Shown here piece by piece: positions 2,238 through 29,992 of a stretch of 36,604 nucleotides of DNA (position 1 is its first letter; every line of letters begins with the position of its first letter). The DNA is taken from positions 1 through 36,604 of the forward strand of contig WIDE01000146.1 of NCBI GenBank assembly GCA_015039315.1, given 5' to 3'. Source of the stretch: Clavulina sp. PMI_390 (taxonomy: Eukaryota > Basidiomycota > Agaricomycetes > Cantharellales > Hydnaceae). A program made the translations under genes and the position numbers. Below the pieces are notes generated by a model, which was given only the letters and a program-made list of their open reading frames with translations, was not told where the DNA came from and did no database searches.

Positions 2238-3801
2238 ATGTCTGACCAGGAATTTGAGTTCGGTAAAGCGCTTTATAATGATTTTATCAGAAGCTTCGAG
2301 ATAGACCGATCTCAATGACCTACCATCTGCTTGTTCACAGAGTCTTTACATCCCCCTCTGTTCTCCCTTTCGCACCCACCAGTGAGCCCCGAGATGAATC
2401 CAACTAGTCATCCACCCTCCTCTTTTCGAATGAGACCTATAATAGCGCCTTCCCCTCTGATTATTCCCAAAACGCCAGGGACACAAGGTCACCATAGGCA
2501 AGGAGGAATCGCTTCTGATGTCTGCTCCCTCCAAGTTGCTTCCTCGTCTGCCTACCCAGTTACACCACCACTCCCTTCAGCCTCGCCTCTCCAGCCACTT
2601 CCCGACAGAAAAGCCTACTGTAAGAGAGCGTGTTGTATCACATGGCCAGGCTCGATGACGACTTCAATTCTGCTTATTCTCGTAGTTCACTACCAGCTAT
2701 TCCTTGAAACCTCCGGGCTGCGGTCCCGCTTCGCTTGTGACCCAGAAAACGAGAGCATCGGTCGTATTCAAAGAAATAGAGTTTCACCACCTCATACTGC
2801 CATGAATGTGAAGCGGTTTATTGCACAGTACGAATCCTGGCCACATCTATTACATTTGACTGAAATCTGGTCAGATATCTCGGCAAGGTTCCCGATGACT
2901 GATGACGAGTTTATCGCGGTAGATGAGGGTGCTCCAGGGACCACTCCTCAGGCCCCACTTGTAATCACTATTCGAAATTCAGGCATTACTGATCAAGAAG
3001 AGCCTATCTTGACGAAAGATTACGCAGTAGCCCCACCTCCCCCTTCAGGCGACATATACTCGGGGCAATACCCAACCCCTCGTTCAACTTCTGGTTTTGT
3101 ATTTCCAACCCCGCCTCCTGCTCCGAGTGGAGTAGATGAGCAGCAATGGTCTCCGTTTCTTCTTCCATCTCCTGCCTTGTCTGTCGTAGACAATAATCGC
3201 TCTACTGCCGTTTCGATCGCTTCCCAAGAGCTGGTCGTAGTTGAACCCCTTGAGGAGGCGTCACAGCAGACGCAAATATCTCCCACCAGACAAGCCGCTG
3301 TTCCCTCTACCCCTTTAGTGACGTCCCTTCATCAGCGTCGGCGCTCCTCAACCAATCGAAGTGGTATTGAGCCATGGAGAATTGATGAGACAGGGTTTGG
3401 AGAGCCTACGATGCATCCTACCGAGGTCGGCAGGGTGATGTCTCACCGAAAACCTCCTGGATGGATTTCGGGTGAGGTTAGTTTTCTGTCATGGGGGCTC
3501 TTCATGAGTAAGATGGACAACCAGCTGCCGTCTGGCACGATCATACGCAATGGGATGAAAGTTTGGGGAGATATACGTACTGAGAGGCGGTTTAAGCTGA
3601 AAGAAGATACTTGTCAGTAATTTGACTTTATTATCAAAATTTCTCTCATCGTTTGGTCAATAGTCGGAACGTTTCGGGTTATTCTAGCCGATACACGCGA
3701 GATCGTAGGTGAAAACTTCTGACTCAAATCAGGCGTCTTACTGACAATTGTTCCCAGATCTATGGACCGGAGATCTCACCTGGGACGCGGTCCAGAGATG
3801 A
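2238..3801 (+). CDS. Proline/serine-rich protein of unknown function, short paralogue (439 aa)
   Basis: Five exons: 2238-2262, 2341-2619, 2686-3612, 3664-3708, 3758-3801. Every junction is phase 1 and matches the splice positions of the paralogue at 27491-29992, and exon 4 is 45 nt in both. Intron 2 (2620-2685, 66 bp) is a multiple of three without a stop, so an unspliced reading runs through it. Conserved blocks are a ~50-residue segment after intron 2 (H-Y-Q-L-F to K-R-F-I-A-Q-Y-E), the V-D-E-G-A-P-G-T-T-P block, W-R-I-D-E-T-G-F-G-E-P-T, K-P-P-G-W, and a C-terminal block ending L-W-T-G-D-L. The Ala/Pro/Glu repeat of the long paralogue is absent. The middle is Ser/Thr/Pro-rich and probably disordered. 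No signal peptide or membrane helix is evident. I do not recognise the family, so no function is proposed. The start is chosen because exon 1 encodes the M-S-D-Q-E-F-E-F-E stretch similar to the paralogue's N-terminus. Confidence 0.8.
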
Positions 3802-12292: not shown

Positions 12293-15200
12293 ATGCGATT
12301 CAGCGATTCAGTCCTCGCGATTGACGTCGAAGCTGTCGCCAGACTTCAGGGCGACGACGCGCTCAGTGGCCTTTGGAACGGTCCGTGGCTCTTCGTTTGT
12401 TCCAGTCGTCGTCGTAGCCGTCAGCTGACAAGTGATCCTCGTTTTTGTTTTGTGGCTGCCCCCATGGGTGGCGAACTATTTTTTTCTCTCTTCTATATGC
12501 ATGCATGCAGTCTTCACAAAGTGCAAACACTCGCTACATGATGGACCGCGTCTGGAGAATATCACCTGGCGCCTGTGGCATAAGGAACTGGCAGACCAGG
12601 CGCTACCCCGGATCGCCTCGGCTACTGACCTCGACGGGCAATGCCTCAGCAGTGATCTTGAGCATGATATCATCCCTGCCACACCGTCTTCTATGACCAT
12701 GATAAGTGACAGCCTAAGTGAGAGTGATCATGCAACCCTCGCAACCCCCTCGCCGCTCTCCCCAGATCCGTCGTCGAGCTATCTCGCCCCCACTCCATCC
12801 ACCGCATTCCCTGCCGTCTCCCCCGTCCTCCGTTCGTCCTCCCAACCATCCGCAAATCTGGCATCCTCCTCAACCGTCCCCTATACAAGCCTTGGTGGCG
12901 GCCACGACGGCCATCTGATTTTCGATTCTCATCATCGGACCTCTTCTGCGCCAAATGGTTTATCCGCCGACGCGGCCGCTGCCTCGACTGTACCAGCTAC
13001 AGCCGCCACAACAGCCTTATCAATAGCCCCCTCTATGAGACATCAATCTTTCAGCGGCCATACTCCTGCTCCTGCGCGCTCAACTCATGATGCGACGAGC
13101 CGACCCCGCGGTCGGAGGGCCAACTCGCATGTCGGGCGTATCATCAGCGAAATGTTGTTGCCTGAAAAATTCAACCCGAATAGGACCTTCGAGACCTCCA
13201 CACCTGTCAGTTTTTCCCTCCTCTCTTCTTGGCCCCCGGAAGTCGTTCCGCTGATGCGATTGACCATGTTGATACATCAATACAGAACTCGAATGGCCGT
13301 GCGGTTATGGTGCTTGGAGCACCCTTACCGCTCTATCGCAATCTTGACCTAGCTCATCGACCTGCATCTGCCCCATCGAATGGCAGCGATATGCGTTCAA
13401 CAGCAGGGATTTTTATCCCTGCAGGGCATGCTCAGCAGCAGGTAGGGACTGATCGCGGCCCTCTCTTACGTCTGGACAGCACGACGAGCACCCAAGCGAG
13501 CAGTGAGCGACATCCCTCCGCATCATCTGTCTCCGGCATGTACCTATTGCCGTCCTCAATATCTTCGGCCGCCTCCTCAGCATCTACCTCCTCGTTGATG
13601 TCCTCGCTTTCATCTGCGCCTCCATCTACACCCCCTTCGGGTTCGGAGGATCTGCTATCCGAGCAAGCAGCAGGAGGCATGAGGAATACGAACGCGCATG
13701 TGCTCGATCGTCACATGAACGGGGGCTTCGTCATTCCGCCATCCGGTGCTCCCTCTCATGGTCTGCCTCATACCCATACCCATGCTCGTGCTAATGCCAC
13801 CCAGGCTCATCAGGGTCCAGAAGCCCGGGCGGGAGATCCGGATGCTGGTTCGGGATCGGCAACTCCACGCGCCCCTGTGTCGCCCACGGGTTCGCGCACA
13901 CGGTCACCTGCAACAAGCATTAGCATCGGCGCGGGTGGGAATGGCGCTGGCTTCGGTATTGGTGGGAGTAATGCAACATGGAGCACGACTACGACGCCCA
14001 GGCCATCTGTCCCTAATGCGTGGGAGTCACCTCTAGCGACGTTCGTTGCCTCTTCGTCTGATTCTGCTTCTGCTTCTACTTCTACTGGGCCCGTCGTGCC
14101 CGAAGTTGTGGCTGGTTCATCGTCTCACTCGCATTCACCATCACATTCGCAATCACAATCATCGCATTCACATTCGCAATCATCACATTTGCATCCTCAG
14201 CAATCGCACTCGCACTCGCATTCACACTCGAACGGAAATAATAATAATACTCATTTGTATCCCGCTATCAACAACATGACTTCGACTCCCGCTCCCACTC
14301 ACGCATTGCGCTCTGCACCTTCTTCTCGACCATCAAGTCGACCGTCCTCTCCTCCCCGTTCCTCCACAAATCCCACCGCCAACCCAAACGCCGCCCTAAC
14401 GGTGAGGGTCATCAATCCCACACCCCGTCCAACCCCGCCTTCTTCGCGACCTCTTTCACCGTCTGATGGAAATGCGTCTTCTTCTTCCTCTGGCTTGTCG
14501 TCATCATCCAGTGGGGAGAAGCCGTTCCAGTATCTCACACTACCTAATCCAAATAGGAATCGGTCGAGACAGAACAGCACCGCTTCTCGCACTGCTGCTC
14601 CTACCATCAATGGTAGTGAGGGCGGAAATAGTGGAGGCGGAGCTGCACCTGGAGGCTTGGTGCGGACAGCGACCAGTTCGCAGCTGCATCGGCCAAGAGG
14701 GGCAAGTATTGGAGGGGTAGTAATGGCTCCACGGAGGAGAGTTCTACCAACGCTGGTTCCTTTTGCGCTACCACTCAACGATAGCTCTTCCAATACTGCG
14801 TCGATGTCGTCCGCGGCTGCTCCTGAAACCCCCTCAGCACCTGAAGGTGAAGGGGAAATTCCCATCCCTGCCGCATATACGCTGTCGACATCTCCGACCA
14901 TCCCCGGGCCCTCTCTCGCGCGCGACGTCGTCTCTTCCCCACCTACCCCGAGCGGGCGAGGTGTTGGAGCAGGCGATCGCAGACGGTTTATGGGCTATCG
15001 TCAAGAGAGGCCTGTGCCTACCTTGCTGGCGACGCCATTCGGGGTGCCAGTCGTGGATGAGAGGGAGTGGGAAGCGAACGAGAGTGGGAATGGAGGTGCC
15101 CGATCGAGAGCTGGGACGATGGCTAACGGTGTGGGTGGACGGAACAGAGCTGGGTCAAGGGCGTTCAGAGCAGCGTCAGACCCACCTGCGCGCTCTGCAG

Positions 15201-18200
15201 AATTACAAGCATTGGCACCTATCACGGGGCCAGCCGCAAACGTTATTCCTGCTCCCCCGACAACTACCTCGTCTGCTTCGACTTCCACGACTGCAACGCC
15301 TGCTACAGCTCGCCCTGTTCCTACTCCATCGCATTCCCGCCGTACCTCGGTTTCCCAGCCATATCCGCCTAGTAATGATGGCCAGCAACCGCCAGCCCAG
15401 GATTCCGAGCTCGTTGCTCGTGCCGCGCGCAAGATCTTCTTCATTCAGCGGTCGCCCCCTGGCGGCTACGCAGGGCCCAATGGTGTGAATGGTGCAGGCT
15501 CTAACCGCGGACTGGCAGGCAGCATTGGAATGGATGGTGATGGCAGCAGCGCGTCAAGTGGTACAGGGACCCTGAGCGCGTCCCTGATGGGTGGAGTTTC
15601 ATCTATTGGCGGTGTTTCCCCAACTCCCCCACCCCCACCTGCGCACATTCCTGCAGAGCACGGCCAGGGTGCTAATGGTATTATAACAAATGGCATCAAT
15701 GCTATGGCGCCTCCCACACCTGGAAATGCAAGGTCAAGAACCGTTGCCCCTGTGGCAATGACAGGGCTCCCGCCTTCTCGTACCCAGACTCCCGCTCCTG
15801 CCCAGATCCCAGCTGTCGTTCCCTTACGGGGGCCCAGTGCGGAACTTCGTTCTTCCACTCGTGGTGAGCCTATTTTTTTCTTACTTCTGTCATGGTATGT
15901 TGTGTTGGAATTTTCATTGACCTTACCAATGCCTTTTGTAGCCTCCGGCGATTTGCCCAATGCAGCCGAGAGAAACGCACCCTCTTCTGCATTACCGCCA
16001 GCGCATCAACACCAACAGGCTGTCACGAGCGCTCCAATTGTTGATGGTGCTTCCACGTCATCGCCAGCGCACGAGGCAAATCGTGCTCACCCGACGCATT
16101 CTTCCGCGACGCCGAGGCAGAAGAAGTCCGCAGCGAGTGGTACATCGACAGTAGCCGATATTAGTGCGCCATCGCCTGCGGTACCTGTCGCTAGTTCTTC
16201 GGGTGCCGGAGCTGTCTCTCGTTCTGCTCCACGTGAGCGAGTCGGTCCGTCGGTCTCGTTTGGTGCGGTTGAAGTCGTTCCGCCACCCAAGGCTATCGTG
16301 GAGGAACCTCCTGCTTCTGCGTCCGAGGCTGTTGCGCCTGAGGATGAAGAAATAACAGAGGAGGAGGATGAGGAGGAAGAAGACACCCAACCGGCTCGGA
16401 TGCGTTCCTCAGCGTCCATGGCGCACCTCCCTCAGAAACGGTCGACGGCATTGACCAAGAGCCACTCGCATACAACCCTCCATCGCAAGGGCCAGCGAGG
16501 CCACGCACTTACGAGTCTAGCACGGATCGTCAACCAAAAGGAGAAGAGCGGAAGTGGAAGCGAGAAGCGCAAGAAGCCGACGAGGCAGACCTCTACAGGC
16601 TCATCAAGCTCTCAACTGGCCAAGCTTGCTGCCGCAGAAGGCAATGCAGCTGGTGTGAACGGGTCTTCCTCGTCAAAACGGAAGGCTTCTGGGTCGAGCC
16701 AGCCGCTAGCGAGACAGGATTCGACTGCTTCGGTTGCTACGTCGGTCAGCAATGGCACACAATCAAAGTCTCCTGCCGGCTCTGGATCGGTTCCTCATCG
16801 GTCCTTTGTTGCATCCCCGCTCTCCACGGTGGTCGTTCCGCTTCCCCCAGTTGTCGAACCAGTTCAGGCTCCTCAACATCCTGCGGAAACCTCGGCAGCA
16901 GCAGCAGCTCGCAATCCCAACCCTACTGCAGCTCTCGAGTCATCTCGCTCTCCGCCTAAAGCTCATGCTGCCGTAAAGTCGAAACGTCCTGGTATGCCTG
17001 GCCGCTCGCACACTTCGGCTGCCATTCTTCGTTCGACTCATCAGGAGGCTGCTCATCATCATGGAGCAGTGGCATCTGCGGCAATGAAAGCTCAGCAGTC
17101 AAAATCGCCATCGAAACGTTCACTCAAAGCGGGGGTGACCGTTGCTGCAGCTGCAGCAGCTGCCGCCGCTAGTGGTCCTGCTCCTGCAAAGAAGAAGCCG
17201 GTACTCGATATGCATTCATCGGACTTTGAAACCACTGATGAAGACTCGGAAGCTTGGTCGTCGGATGACGAGGAAGACGAGCCACCACAGCCTCGCGCCG
17301 CCGGGATGCAGCAACAACGTCAGGCCCATCTACAGCAGCCCTACGGCGGTGGCGGAAGAGCCAATGGTAAGGGCAAGGGTCGTGCTGCTGATCATAAGGA
17401 AGCAGACCTCGCGCAAGCTGCTGCGGAAGCCGCTCGACAGCGCGAGATGTTCCGCAAGGTCCCAAGTCGCTCATATTCGAGCTTGGGACTACAGCGACAA
17501 TCAGGCTTGCTCACCCCACTTCTTAAGCCGGACCCTCGCCTTGTCCCATACTTGCCGCCAAATATTCCTGGCATGCTCTCTAATCCGCCCCTTGCAGAGA
17601 ATGGTGCCCAGCTGGGGAGGACCCACAACTCGACGCATAACCTGGGACGACGCCCTGCTCCTCTGGGTCCCCTGGCTGCCCTGAAGCCTATGACTAGTAA
17701 GGCTTCCTTGCTCTCATTCTTAATGTTACCGGACACTAATTCTCTTCTTTTATCAGGTCGAGCTCCTGCTCCCACTACTACTGCAACAACAGTTCTCTCT
17801 GCTAGCCCCTCAACAGCATCCATCCTCAAGCCCAGCAAGAGCGCCGCAGAAGTCCGCATAGCGCCTGTGAGCGTCACTTCCCAGGTCGCTGTCAATCCAA
17901 GCGGCCGCCCAGGGTACCGACTCAAAGGTCGCCCAGATGGCGCCGACGTTGAGTCTGAGTCTGAAGAGGAGAATCCTGCCAACGTGGACGGCATGTCCAA
18001 ATCGCTTGCTCAGCGCAAACTTGAGCAGCTTGCTGGGTTACGCAGTTCTTCACGACGCTCGCCGTCCCAGGCTCAGCAACAGCAGCAGCAGGCTCAGCCA
18101 CAACAGCAACAGCAACCGCCGCCATCTACTCACTCGCGGCGAAGCGACCCCTCGGATGAACAGATGTCGAGACAACCATACCCGTCCCCACAAGCATCAT

Positions 18201-18592
18201 ATATTACTCAGCAGGTGCAGCAACACGACGAGTTCAGGTCAGAACTCATGCGAACTCCGTCTCTCCCACTCGACCTCCCGCATCCATACAACCTTCCGGC
18301 GCCCTCGATGCCACAATCCCCTCGCACGACGCGCCGGCAGATGATGCAGAACGAGATGAGCGAATCTCTCCGACGGAATTTGTTGTGGGAGCGCCATCTC
18401 AGTCGAAAAATGCTTGGAGGTGGGATCACTCGCATCACGCCCATCGAACCTGTACAACAACAAAATGGCCAGGGAGCCTCTGGGTCTGGTGCCCAACAGC
18501 AACAGCAAACTAGTGGCCGACAGAGAAGCTCTGGAGCTCTCTCTCGCACAAAGAGCTGGGCTGCTGATGACTACCACGCGACGGGATGGTAG
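12293..18592 (+). CDS. AreA-type GATA-like domain / DUF3295 (Mks1-like) regulator, 1983 aa
   Basis: Five exons: 12293-12380, 12511-13205, 13286-15863, 15942-17696, 17757-18592. Joining exon 1 to exon 2 restores the family motif running L-W-N-V-F-T-K-C-K-H, then R-L-E-N-I-T-W-R-L-W-H-K-E (residues about 28-55). This is the N-terminal GATA-like domain known from AreA (PF08550, formerly DUF1752). DUF3295/Mks1-type blocks follow: A-R-K-I-F-F-I-Q (about 975-982), the T-K-S-H-S-H-T-T-L-H-R-K-G-Q-R-G-H-A-L block (about 1285-1320), an acidic T-D-E-D-S-E-A-W-S-S-D-D patch (about 1550), R-S-Y-S-S-L-G (about 1628), and S-E-S-L-R-R-N-L-L-W-E-R near the C-terminus (about 1905-1916). The rest is Ser/Pro/Ala/Gln-rich, with a His-Ser repeat (about 540-580) and polyQ, and is probably disordered. 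Yeast Mks1 represses the retrograde/nitrogen response through Rtg2 and 14-3-3 proteins; a nutrient-signalling role here is inference. Introns 3 (78 bp) and 4 (60 bp) are stop-free multiples of three. An in-frame TAG at 12266 lies upstream of the start ATG. Confidence 0.9.
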
Positions 18593-19193: not shown

Positions 19194-20185
19194 CTACAAT
19201 AGTGAGTGGTCATTTGCCGAACTCAACAGCATCTGTGTGGGAGAAACAAGATGAGCAAGGCAAAATGGATCGTCAGTCGAACACAGCGAAAGAGGTACTA
19301 TACCTGAAGCAATGACTGGGAAAGGAGAAATAATGAGTGCTCAGAACAACGAGACGATGAAAACAACTGAGGGACGAACGTACATCCTAATTCAAGACTC
19401 AGTGGTAGGATTGCTCGATAGGCCGACTCCCAAGCTAGAAAACGAGCAAAATTAGCCAAGCAGCGACATCAGTTTTTCGTCCTAGCTCCTTACAATTTTG
19501 TATTGTCGTTGCCAGCTCTGTCGTGGCGTCAATGAATACATGCTGTCTTGGGCGAAGAGCCGTCGTCCTTCCAGCAACAGATTGGAAATATGGTGCACTT
19601 CCGGTCGACTTGACTTGCCGTGCCCGCACGGTAATCCAGCCAGAGGGGCAGTCTGGGTACTTTACCCTTCCGTCTTCCAATGGGTCGAGCACAGGGTCGG
19701 CTACACCATTAATTACCTTGGATAAGCAGCATAGGAGCGGGCGGTCTGGAGTAACTCCAGGATAGACCGCCTGAGTAGCACTTAGGGCAAAGTCGTCATT
19801 GATAGGAGGCCCGTTGGTGTCAAAGTGTAGCGACTGGAAACGGGACTCTGGGATGGACTCGAGCTGTGCGATCGCGGTCATAAATGTGCCCACATCGAGC
19901 TGAGGGCCGACGCGAGACGATAGGACCCGCCCGATGGAGAGGTCTGTCAGGTCGAACGCCTCCTTCGACTCCATCGCCAGCCCATTCTCGAATATCCGGT
20001 AATAAACTATGTTTCACACGAGGATTCAGCGAAGTCACGGTGCGGCTTAGATCAAAGTTTGACAGACAATAAGGGATGGGAGCGAGCTTTGGAGAGGAAT
20101 TGTCTCTCGATGTCGAATCTGGGTGAATCATGCCGCTGTACGAGCTTGGAGTCGAGGACGAGCGCTTATAGACGCGTTCAGTCAT
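19194..20185 (-). CDS. Unknown protein, four exons (267 aa)
   Basis: Inferred minus-strand exons: 20185-20068, 20006-19494, 19434-19384, 19315-19194. Introns are 61, 59 and 68 bp. The 59-bp one (19435-19493) has a GTAAGG donor, a GCTAAT branch-like site and a TTTCTAG acceptor, and its acceptor TAG is what ends an unspliced reading at 19435. All junctions are phase 1 and the total is an exact multiple of three. The central exon is even in composition, with stretches such as F-D-L-T-D-L-S-I-G-R-V-L and V-Y-P-G-V-T-P-D-R-P-L-L. I recognise no domain, signal peptide or clear membrane helix. The start at 20185 (M-T-E-R-V-Y-K-R) is one choice; the frame stays open upstream to about 20380, so an earlier start is possible. 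The gene converges on the large regulator. Confidence 0.5.
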
Positions 20186-23394: not shown

Positions 23395-26037
23395 CTATCC
23401 GACACGCTCAAATGTATTCCATCGCATGATGCCCTTTGACCAATGGTCGTTTCCAGCGATAAAGTCGCCTCGCACGACCTTGCCACGTTGCACGAGAGTC
23501 CCATCTCGTTCAAGCTTCACATAGACACCCTCGATTCGCCCATCGTAGAACAAGCTCCGGCGCTGCACCATATCCAGTAGCCGCTGGCGCCCAAGGTCCA
23601 CATCCTTCAACGGCCCACGCTCAATCACAGGCACCAAAGCGATACCTCTGGAGCCAACGGTCCGCTCGAGAACGTCCCGCGTCGCCCAGCGGTTTAACGA
23701 GCGATCGTACAGATCGAACGCAATGAAGAGATCGGGAAGGCGAGTGTACGAGACAGAGTGCGTCGCGACCATCCATTCTCCAAAGAGAATATAGCGCTCC
23801 GGGAAGTAGGGATCCGACCCAAGAATCTCATGCAAGGCACTGGATATCCGGGGGGTCTCAAGCCAATGAGAGAGCTTCCCGAATTGAGCATGCGAGTTGG
23901 ACGCGATGTAGTGCGACCGGTTCTGTACCACGAAGCGCCGATCTGCATCAAGGGAGATACCCATGTTTGCACCGTCGATTTTCTCGGTGATGACGAGGTG
24001 AAGATTCGCGGCGTCCGCTTCGGAGAAGGTAGGGAGGTCTACGATGATATCGTCGTCTGTTGCGCTGCCGAGGTTGAGGAGATGGGCGGTGCGAGGAAAT
24101 TTGAAGAGATCGATTGGAGGGGAGAGCTTGCGAATGAGCGAGTTGGCAGCTTCGAATGATCTCACTATCACGATAGACTTGAACCCCTCACTCAGAGTCG
24201 GCTCTTGCATCGCGGCTTTCATAGAGCCAACTGCAGCGCGAACCCGACCTCCTGGAGGAAGCGTAGGGTGCCCAATGCGGTTTTGAGCTCGAGATGTACA
24301 TAACTCAACATCGTAGTCAAACCAAATGCAAGTTGGCGACCGGGCCCATGTCGCTGCTAGTGAAAGCCAGTATTTGCGGTCTTCGGCACTAGCATTGCAG
24401 CGATCAAGGATGGCTCTTGAGACACCAGGTCTGCCGATCTCGGTCTCGCAGAAAGCGCGACTTCCACTGAGGTCTTGCGAGATGTGCTGCCACGGAGCTT
24501 TTGATGAGGCTCGAGCCATGAGACACCTCGTGAAGTGGCTCTTCCCTGAACCAGGGAGACCCACGAGCATGAGCAGGTCACTATTTTTCAGATTACCATC
24601 ACCGACGACCTCGATATCGCAGGGAGCAGGTTCTGAGACCAGAGAAGGGAGGACGGCGCCTCGCTTCCACACAGCGCTGCACCAATTATGCACGAATTTC
24701 TCCTGCTGCTGCGTCTCGATGCTCCCTGGTCGGATAGCGCGCAACGAGGCGATTGCGTCGGTCGCTGACATTGCGGGTTCAGCACGACTCGTGTCAGCTT
24801 GCGCGAACCCAAATGCAGCAATGAAGCACGCTGCAATGGTCCCTGCGCGGCCTTTGCCTCCCCCACAGTGCACGAGGATTGGAAGCTTGCTTTCGTCCTC
24901 AAATTGACGAAGGATAATATCCATCTGTTCGATTGAGGGAGGTTGATAGTTGGGGATCGGCATAAATGTGTGCGTGATGGGCCGACGACTACTAGACTGG
25001 AACCATTCTGCAGGGAGAGGCGTTTCTTCTGTGAGAGTGATGACGTGACGAATACCGATATGCTCGCTTGCGAGGAGCTGGATATCTTCGGCGTTACGTG
25101 GGGTGCTCATGAGGGCAAAGTGGAAGGGGACGATCCACCTAAAGAATCGCGGTAGTGTGATGGGATTCTCGCTGCTGGAGGAGGGGAGGGACAGGCGCTC
25201 TCTTGATTCGAGACATAATGTGGGGACATGCGGACGCTCATACGACGCGATGGCATCCTTGACTGCGTCTTCCCAGGGTACAACTAACAGTGAGCGCAGA
25301 GTAGGGTCGATTTGTTGGTCCCATTCGTCAGAGGTGAAGATGCACCCCCACTCGGTGTATCGCGAGCATTGATACATTGCATGCACGCAGTAGTTCTTGA
25401 GACGGCCTGAAGAGGATTCGTCTAGTGCTAGCACTCGTGCGTAGGAGAGCATAGCTTGCTTGTGAAGGTCTCGCCGGACGGAAGCATCTGCTAGCCTGAG
25501 ATAGCCCTTTGTGGAAGAAGGATACTCTAGACACATATGAGAAGCAACTTGGGTGGGGAGAGTAGGATCGTTGGGAGAGCCATGTTGATGAAGGGAGTGG
25601 GCGATGTGATCTAGTTCGTCGAGAGTGAATGAAGAGAGCCGGGAAGGAAGGGGAACAGCGAGTGATGCGATGCCCTTGTCAAGGGTATGATCGTCCTCCT
25701 CTGAGAGGGTTATATGGAATTGTTTGGGAGGGAGGCCGAATCGCTTTCGGAAGATTTGCCCAGCATTCCATATCACGACGAGGAATCGAACGGCGGATTG
25801 TTTGTGGGACGAGTTTTCGCCGAGACAGACGAGGTGTGAAGTATCGATGGCAGGAAGAGACGTCACTATTTCGTCTCTTCTAGATGAGAGAGACCGCATT
25901 TCATCTTTAGTGATGATGGTGATATGGAGTGGCATGGTATAGGATGCTGAGACTGGGGCTTTTGCATGTTGAACGATGTCGTCGACAGTGGTGCCCACAC
26001 GAGACACAGTCCCTCGAAAGAGCTGGAGATCGCCCAT
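23395..26037 (-). CDS. Four-domain RNA repair enzyme: 2H phosphoesterase, cysteine phosphatase, polynucleotide kinase, RNA ligase (880 aa)
   Basis: A single uninterrupted minus-strand exon of 880 codons. Domain order: (1) residues about 30-130, 2H-phosphoesterase-like, with two H-I-T motifs (H38, H108), the fold used for 2',3'-cyclic phosphate opening. (2) About 295-455, a dual-specificity-type cysteine phosphatase with H390-C391-G-G-G-K-G-R397 and R-P-G-S-I-E-T downstream. (3) About 485-635, a P-loop kinase with G-L-P-G-S-G-K-S (493-500) and L-D-R-C-N (544-548). (4) About 640-880, an Rnl2-like nucleotidyltransferase with motif I K686-I-D-G-A-N, motif III F-G-E-W (752-755), IIIa-like F-I-A-F-D, motif IV E-G-V-Y-V-K (836-841) and motif V K-V-V-R (853-856). 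Together these could heal and seal broken RNA. Fungal tRNA ligase Trl1 instead runs ligase-kinase-CPDase without a phosphatase. Oddities: the usual phosphatase general-acid Asp position reads Asn363 (I-P-N-Y), and the Ser/Thr after the P-loop Arg is Ala398. Residues 131-294 are unassigned. Confidence 0.85.
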   Translation of the reverse strand: MGDLQLFRGTVSRVGTTVDDIVQHAKAPVSASYTMPLHITIITKDEMRSLSSRRDEIVTSLPAIDTSHLVCLGENSSHKQSAVRFLVVIWNAGQIFRKRFGLPPKQFHITLSEEDDHTLDKGIASLAVPLPSRLSSFTLDELDHIAHSLHQHGSPNDPTLPTQVASHMCLEYPSSTKGYLRLADASVRRDLHKQAMLSYARVLALDESSSGRLKNYCVHAMYQCSRYTEWGCIFTSDEWDQQIDPTLRSLLVVPWEDAVKDAIASYERPHVPTLCLESRERLSLPSSSSENPITLPRFFRWIVPFHFALMSTPRNAEDIQLLASEHIGIRHVITLTEETPLPAEWFQSSSRRPITHTFMPIPNYQPPSIEQMDIILRQFEDESKLPILVHCGGGKGRAGTIAACFIAAFGFAQADTSRAEPAMSATDAIASLRAIRPGSIETQQQEKFVHNWCSAVWKRGAVLPSLVSEPAPCDIEVVGDGNLKNSDLLMLVGLPGSGKSHFTRCLMARASSKAPWQHISQDLSGSRAFCETEIGRPGVSRAILDRCNASAEDRKYWLSLAATWARSPTCIWFDYDVELCTSRAQNRIGHPTLPPGGRVRAAVGSMKAAMQEPTLSEGFKSIVIVRSFEAANSLIRKLSPPIDLFKFPRTAHLLNLGSATDDDIIVDLPTFSEADAANLHLVITEKIDGANMGISLDADRRFVVQNRSHYIASNSHAQFGKLSHWLETPRISSALHEILGSDPYFPERYILFGEWMVATHSVSYTRLPDLFIAFDLYDRSLNRWATRDVLERTVGSRGIALVPVIERGPLKDVDLGRQRLLDMVQRRSLFYDGRIEGVYVKLERDGTLVQRGKVVRGDFIAGNDHWSKGIMRWNTFERVG

Positions 26038-27490: not shown

Positions 27491-29992
27491 ATGTCGATGT
27501 TTGAGACAGAGGGTGTCGACTTTGGTAACGATCTTGCCCAATTCGTTTTCGCTTCCGCTCGCCTGTCCCTTTCCCTAAACTCTCTCTCGCGGGTTGCCCG
27601 TTTTCTTCCCATCTTATATAGAGTCGATCCAGCCTCCACCGTACACGCTTCTGGGCGATAACCCCGTTCCGGACGATTTCGTGCTCACCAGCGCCAATTC
27701 TGCTGCCCTCGCCAGCCTTGACCCTAATCGCCGACGCCGTCAAGACCCAGTGGCCGCTGCTGCAGGTGCTCGCAGGAATGATACGCTTCCCCCCATACCC
27801 TACGATGATGCCATAGTCAACTCGCCTATCCCACCTTTGGCACGAATGCCTCGACCAGCAGGTGCACGAGCCCCAGCTCCGGTTCCTGCACCTGCACCTG
27901 CTCCCGTTCCTGTTCCTGCCCCTGTACTTGTAGAGGAACCTGCACCGATAGAGGAGCCAGCGCCTGTACCTCCAGAGGAACCAGTACCAGCACCAGCTCC
28001 TGCTCCTCCTGTTGTTCATGTACTAGCCACCGAACCCGAACCCGAACCTGAACCCGAAGTTGAGCCTGAGCCTGCACCAGTAGCTGCACCAGCACCTATT
28101 CCTGCACCTGCTCCTACTGCTCCAGAAGCCACCCCAGCTGCCCCTGCACCCCCTCAACGTGCGCCCTCTGCAGCGCAGATCCGGTACAGTAAGTTCATTT
28201 CCCATTTCAAAGGCCTCGGTTCCTGTTTCCCAAGCCCGCTTGAACTAATTTATTCATCGCTTCTCTCGCTCCACCCTTCTCTATGCACGTACAGTCTACT
28301 ACAAGATATTTGGCAGTTCGGCCGACCTCACATCGCGCCAAGCCTTTGACCCAGAGGATCCCACTATCGGACGTGTGCCACGATCAAAGATCGCTCCTCC
28401 ACGCACCGCTTTGATCCTCAAGCGATACATCGCACAGCTCGAAGGCTTGGCTATCACTCAGATCACAGGCGTATACCTTGACCCTGAGGAAGATGCTATC
28501 GCAGACAACACTCGGATTGGTGTGGACGAAGGCGCACCTGGTACCCACCCCGATGCACCTATCGTTCTAACGATTGAGGAGATTATTGAAGAGCCTCTGG
28601 AAATGCCGGTCGCTCATGCGACACCAGGCCCATCGGCAAGCTACTTGACGCCAAACTCGCTTCCTGATAATGGGGATTTCGCTTCGAGGCATCATCATCG
28701 CTATAGCTCGGGGTCGGGCTCTATTGCTAGTTCTTCGGCACTGCCTACGCCTGTAACGCCACCGCGAGGAGGTTTGCTTCTTTCAGGCGCAGGTGTCCCT
28801 TCTATGCACCTTCCTTCCCCTTGGCTTCCTGCGCAGACTCCACAGACCCCGCCTTCCCCGGCCGTCTCGTTCGCTCCTTCTAGCTTCAGTGGCGGATCAG
28901 CTGGTGCTGTAGCTGCTGGCGGAGGGGGTGATGGAGGAGCTAACCTGGCCCGTTCCGTAACAGATGGGGCGAGCCGCATGCCACAGCCCAACCCCGCAGC
29001 TCTGAATCGTTATCGCTCTGTTACGGGTGCATCGTCCAACTCGAGTGGATCCCAGCGTGACCTCTCGCTCGCGACGCTCAGCTTGCAGATGCCCACGCCC
29101 TCCGCGACACTACGTCCTGGCCCTGCTGCCAGCCCGTACGCTGGGCCTGGACTATCACCATCATTCCCAACGCCATCACCCCTCGCGACTCCAGGTGCAG
29201 GCCCCAGTAACGCCCCGTACGTGCACCCGTACGTAGCGGCGCACATGCGCCATCCAAGCGGCGACGCAGACGCAGAGTCCATTACACTTTCGATGATGAG
29301 CTCGGAGCCCCCCGCATCCATCGCCGCCCCAACCGCTAACACGATCCCGCGCTGGACGCTCGACGGGGAAGGCTTTGCAGAGCCCACTATGTCTCCTACC
29401 GAAGCCGACAAAGTCGTCTCGTCGCGCCAGCCTCCAGGATGGCAGACAGGTCGGATCCAGATGATCGGAAAGGGCCTGTTTATGGGTAAAGCGGGCTCGT
29501 CGAGCAGTGGAGGGGGGTTTAAGAGCTTGTTTGGTGGGGGTAAGAAGAAGAAGAATGAGCCTCCTGCTCAGCCTGGTGTGCATACGGGTTTTGGAGCGTC
29601 AGGCTCGACGTTGCCGAGTGGGACGATGGTTCGTGATGGAATGAGGATTTATGTGGATACGCGCGTTATGCGCAAGCTGAATATCAAGACGGGGGATTCC
29701 TGTGCGTATACCTAACCCGATCATGCTCATTCGTCCATTCACCCCTTCTTTTCGTGTTTCCCTTTGACTGACGCGTTGGTTCCACTCTTTTCTAGTCAAC
29801 ACGTTCCGCGTCATCATCCCAGAAACGAGGGAGCTAACCAGTACGTATCGTGCCCCCACTTCGCCATCATTATTTCGACTGGCTGTTTCTTTCGAATCAT
29901 AATTGATTGACTTACACCCCCTCTTTTTTGCAGACCTCTGGACCGGCGATATCGTCATTGACCCAGTCCAGCACCCGCCAAAGCAGAACTAG
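27491..29992 (+). CDS. Proline/serine-rich protein of unknown function, long paralogue (703 aa)
   Basis: Five exons: 27491-27524, 27622-28188, 28295-29701, 29796-29840, 29934-29992, all junctions phase 1. Introns are 97, 106, 94 and 93 bp. The short first exon encodes M-S-M-F-E-T-E-G-V-D-F. Residues about 85-195 are an Ala/Pro/Val then Glu/Pro repeat (A-P-V-P-A-P and E-P-E-P-E-P units), absent from the short paralogue. A conserved block follows the second intron (Y-Y-K-I-F-G-S-S to L-K-R-Y-I-A-Q-L-E, about 202-250), then V-D-E-G-A-P-G-T-H-P. A long Ser/Pro-rich linker leads to W-T-L-D-G-E-G-F-A-E-P-T (about 553) with P-P-G-W, and a C-terminal block (about 640-703) ending L-W-T-G-D-I-V-I-D. 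A Lys/Gly-rich insert (K-K-K-K-N) precedes the last block. I do not recognise the family; the alternating conserved blocks and disordered linkers suggest a scaffold, but that is a guess. It has intact and decayed relatives at 2238-3801 and 701-1320. Confidence 0.85.

Follow-up and report, generated by a model that had tools for sequence, protein, structure and literature searches.

A single-exon SAK protein of Clavulina sp. PMI_390 combining 2H, cysteine phosphatase, polynucleotide kinase and RNA ligase modules, a candidate for the repair of nuclease-cut RNA

The window analysed here, by which we mean the whole 36,604-nucleotide stretch of contig WIDE01000146.1 of Clavulina sp. PMI_390, carries on its minus strand an unbroken open reading frame of 880 amino acids (26037..23395), which begins with an ATG at 26037 and has an in-frame stop immediately upstream. 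For comparison, when the bases of the window were shuffled 100 times, no stop-free frame exceeded 288 amino acids (mean 194). AlphaFold2 gave a confident model of the full chain (mean pLDDT 92.8, pTM 0.86), and all four domain matches in the Pfam scan exceeded the curated cut-offs. The modules were arranged in the order 2H, TPR-like spacer, cysteine phosphatase, PNKP-type kinase and Rnl2-type RNA ligase, with catalytic motifs present in all but the spacer:

23395..26037, minus strand: complete single-exon coding sequence (P0001), 880 amino acids plus stop; homologues align across 90–100% of its length
25687..25935, minus strand: 2H phosphoesterase-type domain, residues 35–117, HIT at 38–40 and 108–110 (Pfam 2H-SAK, PF22547)
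25228..25632, minus strand: helical TPR-like spacer, about residues 136–270, missed in the earlier note on this DNA
24691..25152, minus strand: DSP-type cysteine phosphatase, residues 296–449, HC-X5-R loop at 390–397 (HCGGGKGR), Asn363 (Pfam PTP-SAK)
24118..24600, minus strand: PNKP-type 5'-OH polynucleotide kinase, about residues 480–640, P-loop at 493–500, Asp522 (AAA_33, likeness to PNKP)
23476..24000, minus strand: Rnl2-type RNA ligase nucleotidyltransferase, residues 680–854, Lys686 of motif I (Pfam RNA_ligase)

The earlier note had described the motifs in this order within one unbroken exon, and each of them was found in the 880-residue frame. Its proposal that several RNA-end modules share one polypeptide was likewise confirmed by Pfam (2H-SAK, PTP-SAK, AAA_33 and RNA_ligase).

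The neighbours of this gene in the window gave no functional clue: one is a fragment of a protein kinase, and the others are long frames that matched nothing in Pfam. PADLOC returned no match, and no tRNA gene was found in the window by a search with the bacterial code. By eye, four frames (791–1186, minus; 2319–3620, plus; 19435–20013, minus; 28249–29715, plus) look like one local protein family; three have a GFGEPT...PPGW-like motif and the fourth resembles 28249–29715 N-terminally, and the two that were scanned had no Pfam match. The frame at 13184–18592 (plus) is a Ser/Pro-rich open frame of 1802 residues, also without a Pfam match.

The N-terminal part of the protein matched 2H-SAK with an E value of 1.1e-18 (68.1 bits, cut-off 27). 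When the 2H piece was scanned alone the E value was 4.9e-20, and no other 2H family in Pfam matched at E up to 10. Both HIT motifs fell in predicted beta strands of the AlphaFold2 model. Structure searches (Foldseek, VIA) with the confident model of residues 1–292 gave lists filled by TPR matches, and the absence of 2H chains from them carries no weight for or against a 2H fold. The TPR-like module may serve in the docking of a partner or of a ribosome or tRNA complex, although this is a guess. Among the 121 full-length proteins compared (the window protein included), position 38 was His in 113, position 40 Thr in 111, position 108 His in 118 and position 110 Thr in 109. In 16 of the 121, either one of the motifs or both differ from HxT/S; setting aside the partial record P0102 leaves 15, and many of the altered proteins were from Mycena or close relatives. 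From this pattern, the 2H site appears to be the most dispensable part of the protein and would be an optional module.

The phosphatase matched the Pfam model PTP-SAK (PF22784; E 1.2e-56, 191.4 bits, cut-off 27). Both its HC-X5-R loop and its fold were those of a DSP-type phosphatase; the fold match was VHZ, and the closest solved relatives lay among DUSP23/VHZ and archaeal-type PTPs rather than among the RNA triphosphatases. In such cysteine phosphatases an aspartate acts as the general acid. This residue, which is typical but not universal in DSP-type phosphatases, is absent from the window protein: an Asp lies opposite Asn363 in all four of the displayed PDB alignments, which represent three proteins (25xa, DUSP23 in two entries, and ShufPTP). 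The position is Asn in 118 of the 121 full-length proteins and Asp in the other 3; of 64 shorter proteins, 46 have Asn there, 1 has Asp and 17 have a gap. Two other carboxylates of the module, Glu441 (121/121) and Glu338 (120/121), are conserved and might be substitute general acids. Because Asn363 stands in place of the usual aspartate, removal of a 2'- or 3'-phosphate is not to be assumed for this module; we predict it as the likeliest of the readings.

The kinase module, with its P-loop GLPGSGKS at residues 493–500, matched Pfam AAA_33 from residue 488 (E 4.7e-10) and PNKP with an E value of 2.9e-11. The P-loop Lys and the catalytic Asp are present in a related fold, and the fold matches were PNKP/Pnkp-type kinases. 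The NCBIfam PNK-3'Pase model scored 40.9 bits on the window protein, under its full-length cut-off of 502.8. The ligase matched PF09414 (RNA_ligase) with an E value of 2.4e-26 and has the motifs I, III, IV and V (EKIDG, 685–689; FGEW, 752–755; EGVYVK, 836–841; RGKVVR, 851–856) together with the nucleotidyltransferase fold of the Rnl2 type, its fold matches being RNA ligases. The ligase module alone had no relative among PDB sequences at E up to 0.1. K686, E754, E836 and K853 were present in 121 of 121 full-length proteins.

The architecture, which the earlier note had set apart from known systems, proved not to be new in kind. Two of its domains already bear the label "Swiss Army Knife" in Pfam, whose authors were thus aware of them as components of multi-tool proteins. 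The window protein has the same layout as the listed fungal homologues of the SAK proteins (PF22784 PTP-SAK, PF22547 2H-SAK), kinase and Rnl2-type ligase included. The description presumably derives from Burroughs and Aravind (2016; doi 10.1093/nar/gkw722), which two rotifer papers cite. A literature search, which was not exhaustive, turned up no biochemical work on any SAK protein. The homologue search, which scored only the 7,991 candidates with the most words in common, found 513 proteins. With our own HMMs, every one of the 120 listed homologues (the best 120 of 513) showed all five modules, from the 2H domain and the TPR-like part to the phosphatase, kinase and ligase. The count is partly circular, since 83 of the 84 aligned proteins used to build these HMMs belong to the same 120; the precomputed Pfam column for these homologues is independent of the HMMs. 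The named members of the best 120 of 513 were all basidiomycetes (Jaapia, Mycena, Trametes, Coprinopsis, Armillaria, Tulasnella and others). Three environmental proteins were 66, 65 and 61% identical to the window protein, and the named homologues listed were at most about 54% identical. Several homologues carry the name "ATP dependent DNA ligase", for which their domains give no support.

Median identity to the window protein, calculated from 116–117 proteins with the three closest excluded, was 43% for the 2H domain, 33% for the TPR-like spacer, 63% for the phosphatase, 59% for the kinase and 55% for the ligase. By this measure, the phosphatase is the best-conserved module. In addition, C391, R397, K499, D522 and K686 were invariant in the 121 full-length proteins. 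Some family members departed from the common layout in other ways. Altered 2H residues with intact downstream modules were seen in P0034, P0048, P0053, P0054, P0055, P0069, P0077, P0083, P0116 and P0118, from Mycena and close relatives. Three SAK proteins of 1224–1335 amino acids (P0026, P0038 and P0107) have an additional PF00294 domain (PfkB carbohydrate kinase) and are either gene-model fusions or real.

A second search was made with the kinase-ligase half, which admits proteins of about 226–718 amino acids; the best 120 of 435 were listed, among them the window's own frame (P0122). Of those 120, the phosphatase HMM matched 68, and in 66 of these the 2H HMM found nothing, a figure that means little because many of these proteins are fragments or split gene models and the window's own frame is in the list. 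The rotifer proteins are better evidence. P0141 (Rotaria) and P0145 (Adineta), which represent clusters of 15 and 20 sequences, start with MFSLPRF/YFRWIV, corresponding to the window protein from residue 295 onward. These bdelloid proteins have the same phosphatase-kinase-ligase modules, are 54–55% identical to the kinase-ligase half of the window protein and are without a 2H or TPR-like part. Based on the rotifer proteins beginning at the phosphatase, and on the loss of 2H residues in 15 of 121 proteins in which the five downstream residues are invariant, the conserved core of the family would be phosphatase-kinase-ligase. A eukprot transcript in the same material, P0220, has two RNA_ligase domains flanking the kinase.

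In addition to the bdelloid rotifers, the named members of the kinase-ligase list (best 120 of 435) included two oomycetes, a chytrid, Trebouxia (an alga), Elsinoe (an ascomycete) and two tremellomycetes. In a midpoint-rooted tree of 40 kinase-ligase sequences the rotifers formed one group (100/100) beside the chytrid and oomycetes (91/84), within a wider group with Agaricomycetes (96/89); Kwoniella adjoined Armillaria, and Cutaneotrichosporon grouped with Elsinoe. This branching pattern, which has moderate support and a midpoint root, suggests transfer between lineages. PMC11258130 describes strong induction of horizontally acquired RNA-ligase genes in bdelloids under fungal attack and suggests a role in the repair of ribotoxin damage, and PMC10809525 describes two radiation-induced RNA ligases predicted to be horizontally acquired. 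Through its rotifer members, the SAK family would be connected with the study of RNA ligases gained by horizontal transfer and switched on when a fungus attacks.

Elsewhere in the Clavulina genome, on contig C280, we found a canonical Trl1 with ligase (PF09511), kinase (PF08303) and CPD (PF08302) domains spread over two neighbouring frames, all three Pfam families matching at the locus. The suggestion that this fungus has a second RNA repair enzyme alongside Trl1 is supported as far as the presence of a separate Trl1 gene goes, and the SAK protein would be a second sealing system. Trl1 and the window protein are alike in having ligase, kinase and 2H-type modules on one chain, but they differ in order (ligase-kinase-CPD in Trl1) and Trl1 is without a cysteine phosphatase. 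None of PF09511, PF08303 and PF08302 matched the window protein, in agreement with the earlier view that its domain order and ligase type are unlike those of Trl1, and a profile comparison with the CPD-containing Trl1 frame gave no 2H match. Background on Trl1 and 2H enzymes is given in PMC3400036 and PMC5434554. Only one locus in the genome matches PTP-SAK strongly; three further matches are weak (E 2.4e-5 to 8.2e-4). Pieces of two intron-broken tRNA endonuclease genes were found. Tpt1 (PF01885) had no match in any contig at E up to 10 in an exon-by-exon search that could miss a split gene; the result possibly reflects such a gene and possibly a real absence.

Bacterial Pnkp (Clostridium thermocellum type) and Pnkp1-Rnl-Hen1 resemble the window protein in bringing kinase, phosphatase and ligase together and in having a related kinase domain. 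According to PMC4411300, the kinase, phosphatase and ligase of bacterial Pnkp1-Rnl-Hen1 act jointly on ribotoxin-cut RNA. Judged from the same source, the bacterial phosphatase belongs to a fold family unrelated to that of the window phosphatase; the domain order differs too. The bacter_Pnkp model matched only the kinase of the window protein, with 20.5 bits (cut-off 750), and Pfam gave no metallophosphoesterase, HAD-type phosphatase or Hen1 methyltransferase match.

Together, the domains, motifs, conservation, confident model and fold matches, the separate Trl1 gene and the joint action of the bacterial Pnkp1-Rnl-Hen1 enzymes lead us to propose, with confidence somewhat better than even, that the window protein is a fungal SAK enzyme that heals and seals RNA breaks made by transesterifying nucleases, which leave 2',3'-cyclic phosphate and 5'-OH ends. 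Its activities, the order of the steps and the substrate are all predicted on this basis. The 2H domain would open the 2',3'-cyclic phosphate and the cysteine phosphatase would clear the leftover 2'- or 3'-phosphate to give a 3'-OH. The PNKP-type kinase would phosphorylate the 5'-OH, and the Rnl2-type ligase would seal the 3'-OH/5'-P junction via ligase-AMP and AppRNA. The sealed junction would carry no leftover 2'-phosphate, in contrast to the Trl1 junction. Of the earlier suggestion that the cyclic phosphate is opened and the phosphate then removed, the modules were found as described, but the activities stand as a prediction, given Asn363 and the altered or missing 2H site of some relatives. 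Several observations count against our proposal. An Asn at position 363 in 118 of 121 proteins fits poorly with ribose-phosphate removal. Of the 121 full-length proteins, 15 have altered HIT residues, and 66 of the 68 phosphatase proteins in the list of shorter sequences, many of them fragments, gave no 2H match. The structure searches likewise gave no 2H fold, the CPD-containing Trl1 frame showed no 2H match, and the ligase alone had no sequence relative in the PDB at E up to 0.1. We nevertheless regard the repair of nuclease-cut RNA as the most likely role.

The phosphatase could instead be an RNA 5'-tri- or diphosphatase of the DUSP11/PIR1 or metazoan capping-enzyme branch, which together with the kinase would turn 5'-ppp, pp or OH ends into 5'-P, with the 2H domain as an add-on. 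We consider this unlikely, although it would account for the Asn at the general-acid position (118 of 121 full-length proteins and 46 of the 47 shorter ones with a residue there), where the PDB proteins have Asp, and for a phosphatase-kinase-ligase core that is kept in proteins with an altered or missing 2H domain. The mammalian RNA triphosphatase, as Changela et al. reportedly described in 2001, cleaves a phosphoanhydride and for that reason has no carboxylate as general acid. The nearest solved relatives, however, lie outside the RNA triphosphatases, the products of the 2H domain would stay blocked for the ligase, and the conserved Glu441 and Glu338 are possible acids. It is quite unlikely, in our estimation, that SAK is a 5'-end-normalising RNA ligase in which the Asn-containing phosphatase acts on 5'-tri- and diphosphates and the kinase on 5'-OH, the 2H domain is an optional 3'-end tool, and the core has moved among fungi, oomycetes and bdelloid rotifers.

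A role in normal RNA maturation (tRNA splicing, Ire1-type mRNA splicing or circular RNA), as a back-up to Trl1 and not in damage repair, strikes us as distinctly improbable. The single strong locus here and its conservation in many Agaricomycetes are what such a role would lead one to expect, as is a genome with intron-broken tRNA endonuclease genes and no match to Tpt1, which the Trl1 pathway needs. Yet the exon-by-exon search could have missed a split Tpt1 gene, a canonical Trl1 is present, and the tree, within the limits of its rooting and support, looks like that of a gene transferred between lineages (rotifers, oomycetes and chytrid together; Kwoniella by Armillaria) and not of a core housekeeping gene. 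Partial decay, leaving mainly a kinase-ligase with the 2H and phosphatase parts as binding modules, would be in line with the 2H motif losses, Asn363 and the lower conservation of the 2H and TPR-like parts, but is very improbable given that the phosphatase is the most conserved module with invariant Cys and Arg and that the window protein keeps both HIT motifs.

If the window protein is the RNA repair enzyme that we propose, many mushroom-forming fungi would possess next to Trl1, in a single polypeptide, a full healing and sealing pathway that needs no Tpt1 and mends RNA that nuclease toxins or stress have cut. The enzyme would also be a compact tool for laboratory RNA work. With the general acid missing from an otherwise highly conserved phosphatase and with the 2H module optional, a single protein would be enough to test the chemistry.

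The ligase shares the Rnl2-type nucleotidyltransferase fold with T4 Rnl2, the partner of T4 Pnkp, and with eukaryotic Rnl2-type ligases (Naegleria and the Trypanosoma editing ligase), but it stops soon after motif V, unlike those enzymes. Kinase and ligase lay in separate frames in the viral loci fetched. A prokaryotic or viral origin of the whole protein was considered and rejected: in 98 loci (at least 18 prokaryote genome contigs, and 80 of 94 viral ones), collected with patterns from two short stretches per scan and not as a full survey, no frame had two SAK domains and none matched the 2H, TPR-like or phosphatase HMMs. By our HMMs, 28 of the 98 had the kinase only, 53 the ligase only and 17 both in different frames. 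One set of these loci (L006–L022) consisted mostly of stand-alone short kinase frames (148–183 amino acids) related to the SAK kinase, chiefly from Acidobacteria such as Bryobacterales.
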